32,902 nt of DNA from Candidatus Cloacimonetes bacterium HGW-Cloacimonetes-1. Lineage in GTDB: Bacteria; Cloacimonadota; Cloacimonadia; Cloacimonadales; Cloacimonadaceae. Shown here piece by piece: positions 247 through 20,950 of this stretch. Under the pieces are notes generated by a model. That model ran no database searches. It was not told the origin of the DNA and saw only the letters and a list, made by a program, of their open reading frames with translations. The translations under genes were made by a program, and so were the position numbers. The stretch is from positions 1 to 32,902 of the forward strand of contig PHBQ01000024.1 of NCBI GenBank assembly GCA_002841975.1. Direction: 5' to 3'. Numbering within the stretch: the first letter of the stretch is position 1; every line of letters begins with the position of its first letter.

Positions 247-1614
247 CTAATCTGGATTTTTTGTCAATACATTTCTTTGGGAGAGGTAGGCTGTGATCTC
301 GGAAAGCTCCCGTTCAAAACCGGGTTTCCCCATCATAGCATAGGTCGCAATCTTGCCTGCTTCTACTCCGGGCTGATCCAGGGGATCGATGTGAAACAGT
401 TTGCCGGTAAAGACTGTCTGAATTTCATAGAGCATTATAAACTCCCCTATGCTCTCTTCATCCAGAGAGGGAAGGATTATGTTGGCATTGGGGCGACCGG
501 CCTTTGTAAGGGCTATTTCGGTGGCTGTGCGCTCTGTATTGAGCAGGACGCTAAGCTTTTTCCCGCCCAGATAGTTCACTTCTTCCCGATCGGGGTGCAG
601 ATCCGGGATGATGTAATCATGCTTAAACTTTTCCACCGTCAAAAAGGTGAGTACTTTGTCATTGGGACCTTCTGCATAGAGCTGGATCTGAGAATGCTGA
701 TCTGTAGTCCCCAGAGCTTTGACCGGAGTCTGTCCCACGAAAACTTCTTTGCCCTTGCGATCAAAACGTTTACCCAGGCTTTCCGCCCAGAGCTGGCGAT
801 ACCAATCGGCAAAATCGTAAAGAGCGTTGGTATATGGCATCATCACGGAGATGTTTTTGGAATCCCGACTATACAAATAGTGCAAGAGACCGTTCAAATA
901 TGCTGGATTATTCCATTTATCTAGGGTTTCACATCTTGTCTTCATGTTCCCTGCCCCTCTCAGTAAAGCGGCAATATCAATGCCGACAAAGGCGGAGGAG
1001 ACGAGTCCTACGTCTGTGAGCACAGAGAATCTGCCACCCACGTTATCCGGTACGATGAAGGATTGATAACCTTCCGCGCTAATCACTTTACGTAAAAAGC
1101 CTTTCTCCCGATCCGTGGTGATCACGATACGTTTGGCATAGTCCGTGGGATATTTCTCTTTCAAGATCGAGGTCAGGATCATATAACCCGCCATGGTCTC
1201 TGCCGTGGTGCCGGATTTGGTAATCACATTGAAGATAGTGGTATCGAGATTGATCTGCGCGAGTATTTCGTGCAAGAAAATAGGATCTACATTATCATAG
1301 ACAAACAGTTTACGACTTAGTTCCCGCTCTGTCTTGAGCGCGGAATAAAGTGCCTTGTTCCCCAGTGCCGAGCCACCAATCCCCAATACTACCATTGTAT
1401 CAAACTTGGGGTCAAGGTTCCGGATAAAGCTCTCGATATGGCTGATGTCCGATTCCGGCAAATCGTAAAAGCCCAGGATATTACTCTTTCTGTCTGCCAT
1501 AATCTCTTCATGAGCTTGCAGACATGCATAATAGTAGTCGTCCACTTTTGATGTTTTGATACCGCAGGGGATCTGGGGAGAATTCAATAAATTCTGATAA
1601 TCAAATACTAACAT
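247..1614 (-). CDS. pgi: Glucose-6-phosphate isomerase
   Basis: Interconverts glucose 6-phosphate and fructose 6-phosphate in the cytoplasm (glycolysis and gluconeogenesis). At 455 residues it matches the short bacterial form (Bacillus-like, about 450) rather than the 550-residue enterobacterial form. Visible family landmarks are GIGGSALGN near residues 78-86, the sugar-phosphate SIS segment TKSGTTAET at 132-140, the PGI signature NVGGRFSVL at 191-199, QLWAESLGK at 274-282 and GTTDQHSQIQ at 302-311. The start is backed by GAGGA a few bases upstream. It lies 15 bases after ptsI and is the last protein gene of the hprK-ptsH-ptsI-pgi block, so a sugar-phosphate enzyme is tied to a regulatory PTS. 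Two serine tRNAs follow. Confidence 0.96.
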   Translation of the reverse strand: MLVFDYQNLLNSPQIPCGIKTSKVDDYYYACLQAHEEIMADRKSNILGFYDLPESDISHIESFIRNLDPKFDTMVVLGIGGSALGNKALYSALKTERELSRKLFVYDNVDPIFLHEILAQINLDTTIFNVITKSGTTAETMAGYMILTSILKEKYPTDYAKRIVITTDREKGFLRKVISAEGYQSFIVPDNVGGRFSVLTDVGLVSSAFVGIDIAALLRGAGNMKTRCETLDKWNNPAYLNGLLHYLYSRDSKNISVMMPYTNALYDFADWYRQLWAESLGKRFDRKGKEVFVGQTPVKALGTTDQHSQIQLYAEGPNDKVLTFLTVEKFKHDYIIPDLHPDREEVNYLGGKKLSVLLNTERTATEIALTKAGRPNANIILPSLDEESIGEFIMLYEIQTVFTGKLFHIDPLDQPGVEAGKIATYAMMGKPGFERELSEITAYLSQRNVLTKNPD

Positions 1615-8865: not shown

Positions 8866-8895
8866 ATATAATATCACCTCATGTTTATTTGTCAA
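8866..8895 (-). promoter_or_regulatory. Candidate sigma-70-type promoter for lptB/rpoN
   Basis: On the minus strand TTGACA (8895-8890) is followed after 16 bases by TATTAT (8873-8868), in the 31-base gap between lptA and lptB. The predicted start of transcription would fall at about 8861, essentially on the lptB start codon. This could be an internal promoter giving a near-leaderless lptB-rpoN transcript. It is motif evidence only. Confidence 0.45.
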
Positions 8896-9980
8896 GAGTT
8901 GTTATGAAACTTGTACGTCCCCCGGATGCTCTTCTTCATATTCATAAAATCAAGCTTGTTGTCTTTATTAAAGTTAGCCTCCAGATACTCTCCGGTTGCA
9001 GAGTTCATAAAATAGTCCTTTTTCTCGGTTTTCTCCTGCAGATAGTAATAGGAGACCTTGTCTTCAGCACGGAAGCGGCTGATGTTTTCATCACGAAAGA
9101 GGATTTCTATAAAGCCGGCAGAGACCCGGTTGGTCTGAGGAGCATTTCGTTCTTCTGCAAACATCACTACACATGAATCTCGCAATTCTGCGCGTTCCAG
9201 CTTGCGATCTTTGAAAAACAGATAAAACTCTCTGGCACGTGCAGTGGCATACTCCGATATAAAGCTGGGTTCACCGGAAAATACGGCTTTGTCTTCCTTC
9301 AGGAAGTAGATCAAAAAGTCACTATTCGTCTGATAGTCCTTACTCTTTGTCTTCACGTTGAAGGTAGCTATCAGTTTTCGCTCTTTGTCAAAAAACTCCA
9401 TTTTGTCTGCTTCTACATAGAGAGTGTCTTGCTTCCCTGTCCACAGTTTTGGCTTCTCGATCAGGTAGGCGTAACCACTTTTACGATCCCAAAAACCATA
9501 TCCGCATTTCAGAGTGGCGTTTTCTTCGCGGTCATAGGACTGCACGTCGCCCCAGGCAGTCAATTTGTCTTCTTTTTTGTTGAATGCAGCATTGTTGGCT
9601 TTGAACCATCTCAGGCTTCCGGATGGCTTTTTTTCGGTGATGAGTACTTTCCCGCCCAGGTTCATGACCTCCGGGATGCGGTAATATGCCACACTGTCCG
9701 CACTCATGGATAGCGTGTCGTTTGATACTTTCACGTTACCATTGAGGCGTGCAATCTTTTGTTGCTCAAAAATCATCGCCCGGTTGCTTTTAAATTCGGT
9801 CTTTCCATAATAAAAATGCACGTTTCCCAAAAGCTCTAGGATTTGTTCCTCACCCACCTTGGATAAAAACAGTTTATCCGAATGGATCAGACGAAACTTT
9901 TCCGCCGGCTTCGCTTTTGGTGCTGCCCACAAGGGAAGCAACAGCAAGATCAGGATCAGGCTACCAATTGATGTCTTCAT
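8892..9980 (-). CDS. lptA: LptA/OstA-family LPS transport protein (periplasmic), long form
   Basis: Predicted periplasmic bridge protein carrying LPS between inner and outer membrane. A hydrophobic signal peptide occupies about residues 1-20, ending in LPLWAAPKA. The rest reads as repeated OstA-like beta units (for example ELLGNVHFYYGKTEF, ARLNGNVKV, LTAWGDVQSYD) in which a term resembling 'GNV' or 'GDV' is followed by alternating strands. With 362 residues it is about twice the length of E. coli LptA, so it could form a longer bridge or correspond to an LptD N-terminal-like protein. ATG 9980 is preferred (AAGGG six bases upstream); a GTG one codon earlier is possible. It overlaps lptC by about 20 bases. 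Confidence 0.8.
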   Translation of the reverse strand: MKTSIGSLILILLLLPLWAAPKAKPAEKFRLIHSDKLFLSKVGEEQILELLGNVHFYYGKTEFKSNRAMIFEQQKIARLNGNVKVSNDTLSMSADSVAYYRIPEVMNLGGKVLITEKKPSGSLRWFKANNAAFNKKEDKLTAWGDVQSYDREENATLKCGYGFWDRKSGYAYLIEKPKLWTGKQDTLYVEADKMEFFDKERKLIATFNVKTKSKDYQTNSDFLIYFLKEDKAVFSGEPSFISEYATARAREFYLFFKDRKLERAELRDSCVVMFAEERNAPQTNRVSAGFIEILFRDENISRFRAEDKVSYYYLQEKTEKKDYFMNSATGEYLEANFNKDNKLDFMNMKKSIRGTYKFHNNS

Positions 9981-10530
9981 CACTAACCCTTCCCTCGGCT
10001 GAGACTACATCCATTTCGGCATAAGATACTTTGGAATCTGTTCTCAAATTTGTGCCCCTCAGGGTCGTCTCCCCTCTGGTCAATACTACTTTGTCGGGAG
10101 CTACGATTTGATCGACATTCCGATTCCACACGATCCGTCTGGCTTTGATATTGCCATTTGTCGAATTGATTCGGACGTTTCCATTGGCATAAATGAGGTT
10201 TCGCGCATCGTCCACGATCGTGGTATCGGCAAATATGGTGCTCTGCAATTTGTTAAACTTGTCAAAAGTGGTGATTCGTACGTCCCAGGCATTCAGTATC
10301 TTGCGGTCATAAAACCGCTCTATCTTCTTAGCTTCTAGGATATAAGACTTCCCGGGGCCCACATATTCTACAATCCGGACTTTATAGCTGGTTTCATCCG
10401 GTAAGGATCTATCCAGCACCGGAGTTTTGACATTCAAGTCCAGGCGTTTGCACCCGAATGATGCCAAGATCAGCAGTACTGTAAAAAGCCTAAGTGATAT
10501 CTTGCAAATACTGCAGAACTGTCTTTTCAT
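9961..10530 (-). CDS. lptC: LptC-like LPS export protein
   Basis: Predicted inner-membrane-anchored periplasmic protein that receives LPS from LptB2FG and hands it to LptA. The 189 residues start with a hydrophobic segment (about 12-26) ending in ASFGC, so it is either a membrane anchor or an imperfect lipoprotein signal with Cys27. The body shows the LptC/OstA beta pattern (NAWDVRITTFD, IYANGNVRINS, SAEGRVS). Identification rests mainly on this pattern and its place between kdsC and lptA. Its start overlaps the kdsC end by 41 bases, with AGGGA placed upstream. Confidence 0.8.
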   Translation of the reverse strand: MKRQFCSICKISLRLFTVLLILASFGCKRLDLNVKTPVLDRSLPDETSYKVRIVEYVGPGKSYILEAKKIERFYDRKILNAWDVRITTFDKFNKLQSTIFADTTIVDDARNLIYANGNVRINSTNGNIKARRIVWNRNVDQIVAPDKVVLTRGETTLRGTNLRTDSKVSYAEMDVVSAEGRVSDEDINW

Positions 10531-11053
10531 AGATCCCTATATTCTTCAGAACATAGTCGATACACTCTCGTGCAGCACCCTGGCCACCATTGCGGGTAGC
10601 TATGTAATCGGTAATATTTCTGATCTCCGGCATGGCGTCTGCAGGACAACACGAAAGTGCAGCAAGCTGCATCACAGGTATATCGTTCCAATCATCACCC
10701 ATATAGATCACTTGCGAAAAGTTCAATCCCAGCTTACTCAAAAGCTCCTCTGTGATATCCAGCTTACGCTTGATACCCTGGAGAACATGAGGAATTTTGA
10801 GGTCTTCACAACGACGACTCAAAGCCTTGGAACTCCTTCCGGTGATCACTGCCGGGATCAAACCGGCTCGATTCAAGAGGAAAAATCCCATTCCATCGTG
10901 AGCATCAAAATTTTTGCTCTCCAGCATTTCGCCGGAGTAGATTATCTTGCCATCGGTCAATACGCCGTCACAATCAAAGATCATCATGCGGATATCTTTC
11001 CAGATTACCGGCTTCTTGATGGGTCTGGAAAACGTACTCAAATCATAATTCAT
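10490..11053 (-). CDS. kdsC: 3-deoxy-D-manno-octulosonate 8-phosphate phosphatase
   Basis: HAD-family phosphatase that converts Kdo 8-phosphate to Kdo, the inner core sugar of LPS. The nucleophile and acid pair are Asp27 and Asp29 in IFDCDGVLTDG, the KdsC form of HAD motif I. Motif III/IV appears as YMGDDWNDIPVM. At 187 residues it lacks a large cap, as in the tetrameric KdsC family. It follows kdsA after one base, so the enzymes for consecutive steps are adjacent. Confidence 0.93.
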   Translation of the reverse strand: MNYDLSTFSRPIKKPVIWKDIRMMIFDCDGVLTDGKIIYSGEMLESKNFDAHDGMGFFLLNRAGLIPAVITGRSSKALSRRCEDLKIPHVLQGIKRKLDITEELLSKLGLNFSQVIYMGDDWNDIPVMQLAALSCCPADAMPEIRNITDYIATRNGGQGAARECIDYVLKNIGIYEKTVLQYLQDIT

Positions 11054-11054
11054 A

Positions 11055-11861
11055 TTAACTATCCAAAGCCTGTTTCAAGCGTATGCATTTCTCCAGCAAT
11101 TCCGGCAATTGATCCAGGGGAAGCATACTGGCGGAATCGCTCATAGCCTCCATGGGATTGGGATGAGTCTCGATAAACAAACCATCCACCATACCTGTGG
11201 CTATTGCTGCCTGCGCCATCATTGACGCATATTCCGGAGTTCCACCGGAAATGCGATTGATTGAAGGGCGTTGTAAACTGTGCGTCACATCATAGACCAC
11301 GGGATATTTGGCATATCTCAGCATGGCAAAACTGCGGAAATCCACGACCAGATTGTGGTATCCAAAACTGGTTCCCCGCTCTGTCTGCAGAACTTGATAG
11401 TTGTTGGCAGATGTCACTTTTTCGATGGCGGGGATCATATCTTCGGGAGCCATAAACTGCCCCTTTTTGATATTAACAATCTTGCCGGAGAGAGCTGCAG
11501 CGTGAAGCAATTCCGTCTGCCGACTCAAGAATGCGGGGATCTGGATAATATCGCATACTTCTGCGATAATCTCCACTTCCCACGTTTCGTGCACATCGGA
11601 TAGTATTGGAAGACCAAATTCGGATTTGATCCGCGATAATATCTGTAAACCTTCCTTCAGTCCGGGACCGCTATAAGAGGTTTCCGAAGTCCGGTTTGCC
11701 TTTTTGTAAGAAGATTTAAAGATCAGCAACAGTCCAAACTGCTCTGCAATTTTCTTCAGCTCTGCGGCAGTTTCCAGCATCACGTCGTCATCTTCGATCA
11801 CGCAGGGACCTGCGATCAGAAAGAAAGGCTTGGCATGTAATAACTTTTCGTATAAATCCAT
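11055..11861 (-). CDS. kdsA: 3-deoxy-8-phosphooctulonate synthase
   Basis: Condenses arabinose 5-phosphate with PEP to form Kdo 8-phosphate. The 268 residues form one TIM barrel with family landmarks IAGPCVIE (16-23), FKSSYKKANRTS, DVHETWEVE, the GTSFGYHNLVVDFRS segment, DVTHSLQRPS and the C-terminal GLFIETHPNP with DSASMLPLD. The start codon directly abuts the stop of the preceding membrane protein (TAGATG). It is followed by kdsC, then the Lpt genes, consistent with an LPS synthesis and export operon. Confidence 0.95.
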   Translation of the reverse strand: MDLYEKLLHAKPFFLIAGPCVIEDDDVMLETAAELKKIAEQFGLLLIFKSSYKKANRTSETSYSGPGLKEGLQILSRIKSEFGLPILSDVHETWEVEIIAEVCDIIQIPAFLSRQTELLHAAALSGKIVNIKKGQFMAPEDMIPAIEKVTSANNYQVLQTERGTSFGYHNLVVDFRSFAMLRYAKYPVVYDVTHSLQRPSINRISGGTPEYASMMAQAAIATGMVDGLFIETHPNPMEAMSDSASMLPLDQLPELLEKCIRLKQALDS

Positions 11862-12191
11862 CTATTCTCTATCCTTATGATTCATGATATAGAGCACCAT
11901 AAAGCCCAAAACGGCCACCACAATGATCCCGGAAATCATGATAATCACAGATTGGTGCGCATAGCCCATAAAGGGCAAAGGCTCTCTCCGGGGCTGCCAC
12001 TTTGAATCCGGCTTTATATCCGGGTCATAGTCGGAAGGCTGGTCGGTATATGAGGATCTGATCGTCTTGTAATAACTGTAGTTTTTGGGGTTGTCCAGGG
12101 CATCAAATGTATAGTCCACAACGGAATAGACAGCAAGAGCCATCAGGGATATTAGAAACAGCCAGAACAATATCTTCAGATCATTGTGCAT
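11862..12191 (-). CDS. Small two-helix membrane protein of unknown function
   Basis: I do not recognise this 109-residue protein. It has a hydrophobic helix near the N-terminus (about residues 6-24, LKILFWLFLISLMALAVYSV) and another near the C-terminus (about 81-105, SVIIMISGIIVVAVLGFMVL). A polar middle loop rich in tyrosine, aspartate and proline joins them. Such a hairpin would place both ends on the same side. It lies 10 bases after metK, and its stop codon touches the kdsA start, so it is cotranscribed with Kdo synthesis genes. ATG 12191 with AGG upstream is preferred over the adjacent TTG. Its place suggests a role in envelope biogenesis, but that is inference. Confidence 0.75.
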   Translation of the reverse strand: MHNDLKILFWLFLISLMALAVYSVVDYTFDALDNPKNYSYYKTIRSSYTDQPSDYDPDIKPDSKWQPRREPLPFMGYAHQSVIIMISGIIVVAVLGFMVLYIMNHKDRE

Positions 12192-12201
12192 CAATACCTG
12201 C

Positions 12202-13377
12202 TTATTTTAGTTCTATCACTTTTTCCCAAGGTAATTCCAGATCGTAACGGCCAAAGTGACCATAGGCCGCAGTAGATCTATATATCGGATTTCTGAGGTC
12301 GAGCTTCTGGATTATTCCCTTTACTGTCAAGTCAAAATTACTGCGGATCAAGTCTTCCAGCTTGGAATCTTCATACTTACCGCTGTTAAATGTATCGACC
12401 ATGATCGACACCGGCTCGGCTTCACCGATCACAAAGCTAAACTGGAGCAAACATTCGTCTGCCAACCCGGATGCTACCACGCTCTTAGCGATGTGGCGCG
12501 CCATATATGCGGCACTTCTGTCCACCTTTGTGGCGTCCTTTCCGGAAAATGCTCCGCCGCCATGCTGAGCCCATCCACCGTAGGTATCGACGATGATCTT
12601 TCTTCCCGTCAGTCCCGTATCGGCAGCAGGTCCGCCATCTGTCCACATCCCCAGAGGGTTGATCATGATGTTGCAGTTTGAAGCATCAAATGGGAGTTCG
12701 CTTTCGGATTGCATATCGTCGATTGTGGGTTGCACTACCAGACGCATGATCTCTGCCTTAAGCGCGTTAAACTGCTGCTCGTTCACTGGCATATGATGTG
12801 TGGAAATTACCAGAGTTTGCAGATCGACGGGGACTCTATTCACAAATTTGAATGAGACTTGGGATTTTGCATCCGGCATCAGTTCCGGAAGTGTTCCGTT
12901 TTTGCGGACTTCGGCAAGATGCTGTAACAGCTTGTGAGACATGGCAATTGGGATGGGCATCAGGTGTCTGGTTTGATTGCAGGCATAGCCAAACATCAAG
13001 CCCTGATCACCGGCACCCTGGTTTTCATTGAGTGCCACTTCTTGTTGATGCAAATAGTTGATAATCTTACAATTGTGATCAAATCCTTTATGGGGGATGG
13101 TATATCCGATTTCCGATATAGTTTTGCGTACTACTTGCTCGATCTCGGAAGTGGGTATTTCTTTATTACAGGCGATCTCGCCGGCCAATACGACCGTATC
13201 TTGAGTCGTCAAAGTTTCACATGCCACTCTGGACATGGGATCCACGGCCAAATGTGCATCTAAGATTGCGTCCGATATCTGGTCACAAACTTTGTCAGGA
13301 TGCCCTTCCGAAACGGATTCGGAAGTGAAAACAAACTGATTGAAGTTCTTCTTGTCTGGTGTGTGTAATGCTGCCAT
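12202..13377 (-). CDS. metK: S-adenosylmethionine synthase
   Basis: Makes S-adenosylmethionine from methionine and ATP in the cytoplasm. The 391 residues match the family. Landmarks are EGHPDKVCDQISDAILD (starting at residue 24), the ATP motif GAGDQG (121-126), and the phosphate loop GGGAFSGKD (273-281), followed by KVDRSAAYMAR. AAGGAG lies eight bases upstream of the start. It heads the long minus-strand run into the Kdo/Lpt genes. Its leader ends in a terminator hairpin directly before the ribosome site, so expression is probably controlled by premature termination. Confidence 0.97.
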   Translation of the reverse strand: MAALHTPDKKNFNQFVFTSESVSEGHPDKVCDQISDAILDAHLAVDPMSRVACETLTTQDTVVLAGEIACNKEIPTSEIEQVVRKTISEIGYTIPHKGFDHNCKIINYLHQQEVALNENQGAGDQGLMFGYACNQTRHLMPIPIAMSHKLLQHLAEVRKNGTLPELMPDAKSQVSFKFVNRVPVDLQTLVISTHHMPVNEQQFNALKAEIMRLVVQPTIDDMQSESELPFDASNCNIMINPLGMWTDGGPAADTGLTGRKIIVDTYGGWAQHGGGAFSGKDATKVDRSAAYMARHIAKSVVASGLADECLLQFSFVIGEAEPVSIMVDTFNSGKYEDSKLEDLIRSNFDLTVKGIIQKLDLRNPIYRSTAAYGHFGRYDLELPWEKVIELK

Positions 13378-13380
13378 TCA

Positions 13381-13570
13381 TTTTCTCCTTTTTTATACAA
13401 ATAAAAAAACCGACTCGCTAAAGCCGGTTTTCGTAAAAAAGGGAAAATCCGCGCTTTAGCACATTTATAAGGCGGAGCAAAGAGCAAAATTACCGCCATC
13501 TATATCACCGATAAAGCTTTACGTAAACCAAGGGCTTGCGCCGTTTACTGCTAAACCGGATAATGAACAC
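13381..13570 (-). promoter_or_regulatory. Structured metK leader with terminator/antiterminator, SAM-II-like candidate riboswitch
   Basis: Between tRNA-Lys and metK the minus strand holds three elements. First, a hairpin GTAAAC-GGC-GCAA-GCC with closing GTTTAC (13548-13523). Second, a stem GGCGG/CCGCC (13497-13493 and 13475-13471) with a 17-base loop, followed by ATAAATGT-GCTAAAGC (to 13453). The stem, the 17-base loop and the ATAAATGT..GCTAAA tail resemble the SAM-II aptamer layout as I recall it. Third, a terminator ACCGGCT/AGTCGGT (13428-13409) with a T run. GCTAAAGC (13460-13453) is the exact complement of GCTTTAGC inside the terminator (13424-13417), so an antiterminator can form. I could not confirm the SAM-II pseudoknot pairs. 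Confidence 0.5.
13403..13428 (-). terminator. Leader terminator (attenuator) in front of metK
   Basis: A 7-bp stem ACCGGCT/AGTCGGT (one G-T pair) with loop TTAGCG is followed by six or more T residues on the minus strand. It ends about 10 bases upstream of the metK Shine-Dalgarno, so it would stop transcription before metK when formed. It may also end the tRNA-Lys transcript. Confidence 0.75.
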
Positions 13571-13646
13571 TGGTACACCCTCGGGGATTCGAACCCCGGA
13601 CCCACTGATTAAGAGTCAGTTGCTCTACCAACTGAGCTAAGGATGC
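13571..13646 (-). tRNA. tRNA-Lys(CTT)
   Basis: Minus-strand cloverleaf: acceptor GCATCCT with AGGGTGT (two wobble pairs), D arm with GCTCAGTTGGTAGAGC, anticodon arm ACTGA-CTCTTAA-TCAGT with anticodon CTT, T arm CCGGG-GTTCGAAT-CCCCG (approximate register), discriminator A and encoded CCA at 13571-13573. It lies upstream of metK on the same strand and may share its promoter, in which case the tRNA 3' end is trimmed from the metK leader transcript. Confidence 0.95.
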
Positions 13647-13659
13647 ATAGCGTTGAGCC

Positions 13660-13687
13660 ATAAAATCTGAAATGCCTTTCATGTCAA
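13660..13687 (-). promoter_or_regulatory. Candidate promoter for tRNA-Lys (and metK)
   Basis: TTGACA (13687-13682) is followed after 16 bases by TTTTAT (13665-13660) on the minus strand. The expected start is about 7 bases upstream of the mature tRNA-Lys 5' end. Position and motif agree, but the -10 box matches the consensus at only four of six bases. Confidence 0.5.
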
Positions 13688-20748: not shown

Positions 20749-20950
20749 AAACAAGGCAGGGACAATGCCATTGATAGATGTTGACATTATCGCTATTATC
20801 GGAAAGCTGGCTTCATGCCGAGTGTTGATATACATCCTTGTATCAATACCTATGGGTGCGAGTATGGAAACGACTGCACCTCCCGTGTTTGGAAAGGCTA
20901 CTGATTTTGCTTGAGCAAAGCATAGCCTATTAGTTTGAAAGGAATAGGTT
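20749..20950 (+). promoter_or_regulatory. Structured leader of the ECF transporter operon
   Basis: Three or four hairpins lie here. TTGATA..CA-TCCT-TG-TATCAA (20825-20846) has a 2-base bulge. GGTGC-AGT/ACT-GCACC spans 20855-20880. TTTGC-TTGA-GCAAA spans 20906-20919. AGCCTATT/AATAGGTT (20924-20931 with 20943-20950) is 8 bp with one G-T pair; its 11-base loop displays the AAAGG ribosome site, and the start codon follows directly. I recognise no known riboswitch class. Translation control by folding is possible but unproven. Confidence 0.35.

Follow-up and report, generated by a model that had tools for sequence, protein, structure and literature searches.

A putative compact riboswitch of the SAM-II type with a terminator/antiterminator platform in the metK leader of Cloacimonadota

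The metK leader of Candidatus Cloacimonetes bacterium HGW-Cloacimonetes-1 contains a putative riboswitch (minus strand, 13500-13405), which combines a compact aptamer of the SAM-II type with a terminator/antiterminator platform. Very probably, this element is a riboswitch of SAM-II fold with a reduced loop and P2a region, controlling metK by SAM-dependent transcription termination. We regard the feature as real and its class assignment as clear, and the proposed mechanism appears well supported by the sequence. The element is a variant of the known SAM-II riboswitch; its reduced aptamer and its location directly behind a tRNA gene are unusual. All coordinates refer to the window, i.e. the whole stretch of 32,902 nucleotides analyzed (contig PHBQ01000024.1), unless another contig is named.

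Anatomy of the metK leader

Between tRNA-Lys and metK, the minus strand reads GGCGG-UAAUUUUGCUCUUUGCU-CCGCC-UUAUAAAUGU-GCUAAAGC-GCGG, followed by a terminator hairpin of 12 pairs with a 4-nt loop and a T tail (Table 1). A previous sequence-only reading had described a 5-bp stem with a 17-nt loop, then ATAAATGT and GCTAAAGC, and a terminator directly before the ribosome site. Stem and loop were located as claimed, the positions of ATAAATGT and GCTAAAGC (13460-13453) were found to be correct, and the hairpin indeed lies immediately ahead of GGAG and the metK start codon. Furthermore, GCTTTAGC within the terminator (13424-13417) complements GCTAAAGC exactly. The P1 loop comprises 17 nt in the host and 16 nt in nearly all relatives.

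Table 1. Features of the tRNA-Lys/metK locus (window coordinates)
Feature	Position	Strand	Basis or details
Putative promoter of the tRNA-Lys/metK unit	13660..13687	-	TTGACA 13687-13682, 16-nt spacer, TTTTAT 13665-13660
tRNA-Lys (anticodon CTT), probably first gene of the transcript	13571..13646	-	ARAGORN and Rfam
P1 5' strand GGCGG	13493..13497	-	Sequence; covariation
Loop strand UAAUUUUG, predicted to correspond to the third strand (AUUUG) in the major groove of SAM-II/SAM-V	13485..13492	-	AUUU invariant in alignment A1; motif also in the classical SAM-II of the phylum
P2 5' strand CUUUGC	13477..13482	-	Invariant in 34/34
P1 3' strand CCGCC	13471..13475	-	Sequence; pair analysis of relatives
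P2 3' strand GCUAAAG, also predicted antiterminator 5' strand	13454..13460	-	Invariant; antiterminator pairing
Tail CGCGG, lengthens the predicted antiterminator; P2a minimal or absent	13449..13453	-	C13453-G13424, C13451-G13425, G13450-C13426, G13449-C13427; G13452 bulged
Intrinsic terminator; inner GCUUUAGC (13424-13417) is the antiterminator partner	13405..13432	-	Terminator scan; loop conservation; folding
Shine-Dalgarno GGAG of metK	13385..13388	-	Sequence
metK, S-adenosylmethionine synthetase, 391 aa, ATG at 13377	12202..13377	-	Pfam PF00438, PF02772, PF02773
Genes 3' of metK, separated by short gaps or overlapping: 110-aa ORF (no Pfam match), kdsA-like, kdsC-like, lptC, lptA/OstA-like	8892..12194	-	Pfam; order in relatives

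The genes kdsC, lptC and lptA were found in this order after metK in all ten relatives compared, and kdsA in nine of them. The switch may therefore gate these LPS genes too, unless they have internal promoters; if they are co-transcribed, outer-membrane genes would be tied to the SAM level. Elsewhere in the window, a molybdenum/tungsten cofactor riboswitch (RF01055) was detected at 20804-20916 on the plus strand with 39.8 bits, which exceeds the cut-off.

Conservation and fold of the aptamer

The genome set comprised 125 genomes of the phylum, 50 of them from the host's own Cloacimonadota family. A first DNA search revealed the same stretch in 15 more genomes of this family. A pattern search and a covariance model (R1), for which 34 distinct aptamers, all of the compact form, served as input (alignment A1), extended the finds to 43 of 50 family genomes, with E < 1e-15 at metK sites. 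The core AATGTGCTAAAG plus CTTTGC, which is nearly invariant, the stem and the terminator loop were conserved in 43/50 genomes. metK could be identified in 43 of the 50, and the R1 match was located just upstream on the same strand in 42 of these; the sole exception was G006, where metK runs into the contig end. Matching contigs belong to Candidatus Cloacimonadota, among them Ca. Syntrophosphaera thermopropionivorans. Outside the family, the same element precedes metK in G062, a genome from a second family of the order; this copy (L101) has a perfect 5-bp P2a, UCACA/UGUGA, as in typical SAM-II. Such conservation is far beyond chance, and we consider it the real evidence for the element.

The metK leaders of 19 genomes from other families of the phylum yielded no Rfam RNA above cut-off, and the viral contigs searched gave zero matches. 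Pattern matches beyond Cloacimonadota (WOR-3, Pelagibacteraceae, Helicobacteraceae, Firmicutes) lacked both the terminator and the metK neighborhood and appear to be chance hits. The host leader as a whole folded only moderately better than shuffled sequences (z = -2.2), as is expected of a pseudoknot aptamer.

The stem proposed by the sequence-only reading (13497-13471) covaries among relatives. P1 pairs 4-30, 5-29, 6-28, 7-27 and 8-26 of alignment A1 include two with changes on both sides. The covariation score of P1 and P2 combined was 0.101, as compared to 0.047 +/- 0.009 for shuffled alignments, with none of 500 shuffles as high, and slid pairings scored 0.005-0.056. The outermost pair was open in 10 of 34 aptamers; P1 therefore comprises 4-5 bp.

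P2 consists of the pairs C13482-G13454, U13481-A13455, U13480-A13456, U13479-A13457, G13478-C13459 and C13477-G13460, with U13458 bulged. The sequence-only reading had recognized the order of SAM-II elements, which was borne out, but had found no convincing pseudoknot pairs; this second point did not hold, as the six pairs of CUUUGC with GC.AAAG are possible in all 34 aligned aptamers. They are 100% kept with zero variation. Hence, covariation cannot prove P2, and its support is the identity with the known fold; apparently, it is the equivalent of P2 in SAM-II and SAM-V.

The crystal structure of SAM-V was found by its authors to be superimposable on SAM-II (PMC6061858). There, the adenine of SAM pairs with the bulged U47, the sulfonium faces O4 of U9 and U20 within the U20:A48.U9 triple, and the aminoacyl end contacts A50; contacts in SAM-V/SAM-II comprise U8, U9, U10, U19, U20, G21, C22, U47, A48, A49 and A50 (PMC6061858). 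The equivalents, assigned by manual alignment, all map to invariant positions in the metK leaders. For the host these are U13458 (= U47), the uridines of AUUU in the loop, U13479, A13457 and A13455 (= A50), and the identities of U9, U20, U47 and A50 are invariant at the equivalent positions. We infer that SAM is the ligand and that a triplex is formed. Position 18 is U in the compact form and A or C in classical members of the phylum; U18 would pair with A50, the SAM-V contact of the aminoacyl end. In the compact form, P2a has two pairs at most, and these are disrupted in some members (L016, L045). In SAM-II, this helix has 5 bp in 60% of members and 2 bp in metX (PMC6061858). A P3 hairpin was sought between P1 and the 3' strand of P2, where only about 7-10 nt are located, and none was found.

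The sequence-only reading had left the choice between a divergent SAM-II/SAM-V and a new class. The relatives point to a reduced SAM-II, and a new class that binds another ligand (SAH, methionine, MTA, or both SAM and SAH), with the SAM-II likeness arising by convergence or pocket drift, is a minor and improbable rival. Such a class would account for U at position 18, the shortened turn and P2a and the Rfam scores below cut-off, and control by SAH or methionine would suit metK too. However, the identities contacting adenine (U47), sulfonium (U9, U20) and the aminoacyl end (A50) are all invariant, and classical SAM-II with the same element order occurs within the phylum.

Orphan second copies of the aptamer were observed in two different genera (L098:1364-1416, minus strand, G045:C36; L099:1489-1541, minus strand, G059:C20). 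Both have GCUAAGG in place of GCUAAAG, i.e. A50, the base contacting the SAM aminoacyl end, is changed to G. No tRNA or metK was seen beside them; in one case, a TTGACA box lies shortly before the aptamer and is matched on the downstream side by a short ORF whose function is unknown. These copies may have decayed or changed their ligand.

Expression platform and the tRNA-Lys transcript

Pairing of GCUAAAG and its tail with CCGGCUUUAGC of the terminator was analyzed in 41 leaders. Standard pairs occupied 96.9% of cells, as compared to 16-52% when the strands were slid. This agrees with the pairing 13460-13453/13424-13417 suggested by the sequence-only reading: terminator-loop letters opposite the core vary mostly in a G-U-compatible way (U replaces C where it faces G, and G replaces A where it faces U), whereas any of the four letters may occur at the adjoining loop position. 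Shuffling of the 3' letters gave no strong separation (25/500) because the aptamer fixes the 5' side.

Minimum free energy folding of transcripts cut just past the loop produced the antiterminator in 37 of 41 leaders. With permuted loops, which served as the control for terminator-loop complementarity, this fell to 6%, and with the whole region permuted to 3%. When the P2 strands were blocked to mimic the bound state, the terminator was obtained in 39 of 41. Full-length leaders gave 20 antiterminators and 21 terminators; the two states are therefore near balance. The conserved terminator loop and the folding thus back the earlier proposal that GCTAAAGC is shared by aptamer and antiterminator.

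Sequence and folding models together support an OFF switch, in which SAM would promote termination and the aptamer/terminator and antiterminator would be mutually exclusive. RNA polymerase probably starts before tRNA-Lys and would transcribe first the tRNA, then the aptamer. When SAM occupies the groove of P2, where it would lie against AUUU, GCUAAAG would be kept paired with CUUUGC in the pseudoknot, the terminator would form and transcription would halt ahead of metK. In the absence of SAM, GCUAAAGY(G)CGG would pair with CCGGCUUUAGC and block the terminator, allowing transcription to proceed into metK and the genes that follow. tRNA-Lys would be made in either case. SAM-II switches mostly act on transcription (PMC6061858); an example is S. 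meliloti metZ (PMC9373788).

Adjacency to tRNA-Lys, pointed out by the sequence-only reading, is recurrent and not incidental: in the host, tRNA-Lys(CTT) lies on the same strand, and 36 of the 41 unique leaders from the family have it upstream, or 37 including one at 742 nt. The remaining four leaders had no tRNA match, three of them with less than 430 nt of upstream sequence. In 15 leaders, the distance from the tRNA to the third P1 base is 8-15 nt, which corresponds to about 6-13 nt from the tRNA CCA to P1; this gap is too short for a separate promoter outside the tRNA. TTGACA occurs at about the same place before the tRNA in 35 of 37 relatives, and no comparable conserved box was found between tRNA and aptamer in the relatives compared. 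A strict promoter scanner did not call the host's TTGACA/TTTTAT pair; the mean best promoter score before the tRNA was 9.4, as compared to 7.7 for shuffles and 7.5 upstream of P1. Co-transcription of tRNA-Lys and metK is likely, and because of the short distance and the conserved box, tRNA, switch, metK and the Kdo/Lpt genes probably form one transcript. If so, a metabolite switch would be located directly behind a tRNA gene, and its terminator would at once end tRNA transcription and gate SAM synthesis. The tRNA-aptamer gap of the host is long, about 70 nt (13504-13570, minus strand), and contains a hairpin (GTAAAC..GTTTAC) as well as a weak box, TTTACG-17-TATAGA; it may therefore harbor a second promoter.

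Location shortly after tRNA-Lys in many relatives would also suit a plain terminator ending the tRNA transcript, followed by a metK leader whose core is a protein-binding or processing site without metabolite control. We consider this highly unlikely, as a plain terminator needs neither the invariant CUUUGC/AAUGUGCUAAAG core nor a complementary loop, and as the copy of the second family (L101) has core, terminator and metK but no tRNA within 680 nt upstream.

We tentatively suggest a minimal SAM-II subclass that can dispense with P2a and has a pair between position 18 and A50. It might serve as a SAM-gated tRNA-gene terminator; expression of SAM synthetase and of the Kdo/Lpt genes for LPS would then depend on gated read-through of transcription from tRNA-Lys. 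The two orphan copies carrying A50G may have shifted to another ligand. In a literature search of incomplete coverage, we found no report of this element or of any riboswitch from Cloacimonadota, and no clear precedent for placing a riboswitch immediately after a tRNA gene.

Comparison with known SAM riboswitches

Rfam assigned no family to the leader at cut-off. The Infernal scan proposed by the sequence-only reading failed by score, although the architecture fits. At a permissive threshold, RF01726 matched in the window with 17.0 bits, aligned over the full model length; RF00521 and SAM-V (RF01826) were not listed. Gathering cut-offs are 36 bits for RF00521 and 44 bits for RF01726. RF00521 matched neither the window nor any of the host-family metK leaders tested, and RF01726 exceeded its cut-off in none of the 125 genomes. 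Other Rfam matches on 13370-13580 (ToxT thermometer, STnc430, preQ1-II and others) were all below cut-off and mostly matched U-rich terminators. When the 125 genomes were scanned with RF00521 and RF01726 (E up to 1), most matches were due to chance, and such matches were present in control genomes too.

Within the phylum, RF00521 matched in other families, namely in G095 (41.1 bits, a tandem pair), G123 (34.1 bits) and G072 (34.1 bits), which alone formed the classical comparison set. They share with the compact form the spacing and the order of P1, AUUU (GUUU in G072), UUGC and GCUAAA. R1 aligned end to end on all four classical members exactly at the Rfam match sites, although these matches were weak (E 0.19-1.5, 14 kb). 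Because architecture, spacing and end-to-end alignment are common to both, we call the element a compact, divergent SAM-II, albeit one failing the Rfam score test. Apparently, a Cloacimonadota branch of SAM-II switches is invisible to present Rfam models. With its short turn and nearly absent P2a, the compact form provides a natural test of the minimum size of the SAM-II pocket.

The tandem pair (L048:1417-1575, minus strand, G095:C136) precedes a gene other than metK; the first copy has a terminator, and the second overlaps the ribosome site and is probably translational. Two classical SAM-II-like elements are located on one contig of G123 (L049:1-50 and 1263-1338, plus strand, G123:C10). One, cut by the contig end, lies directly before metK, the other after metK and before another gene, and both end in a ribosome site.

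Like SAM-II (RF00521, SAM_alpha, including the in-phylum tandem pair), the compact form has the order P1 - (G)AUUUG - UUGC - P1' - GCUAAA, a P2 pseudoknot with a bulged U, and an expression platform that, like that of S. meliloti metZ, is a transcription terminator. It differs in a turn of about 3 nt from AUUU(G) to the P2 strand, as compared to 5-6 nt in classical members, in little or no P2a, in U18 instead of A or C, in one extra P2 pair (C-G) and in its sub-cut-off score. All 60 positions of the long-loop SAM-II model (RF01726; Bacteroidetes, marine) were aligned at 17.0 bits, with UGCUAAAGC; the loop of the model is longer than that of the candidate, and the score is far from the 44 bits required. 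SAM/SAH (RF01727) likewise is a small H-type pseudoknot preceding metK (PMC2864571), but gave no Rfam match with the candidate. SAM-V (RF01826, Pelagibacter) shares the same pocket, U8-U10, U19, U20, U47 and A48-A50 (PMC6061858), whereas the candidate has no P3 hairpin, gave no match to the SAM-V model up to E = 10, and would act by a terminator instead of ribosome-site sequestration.
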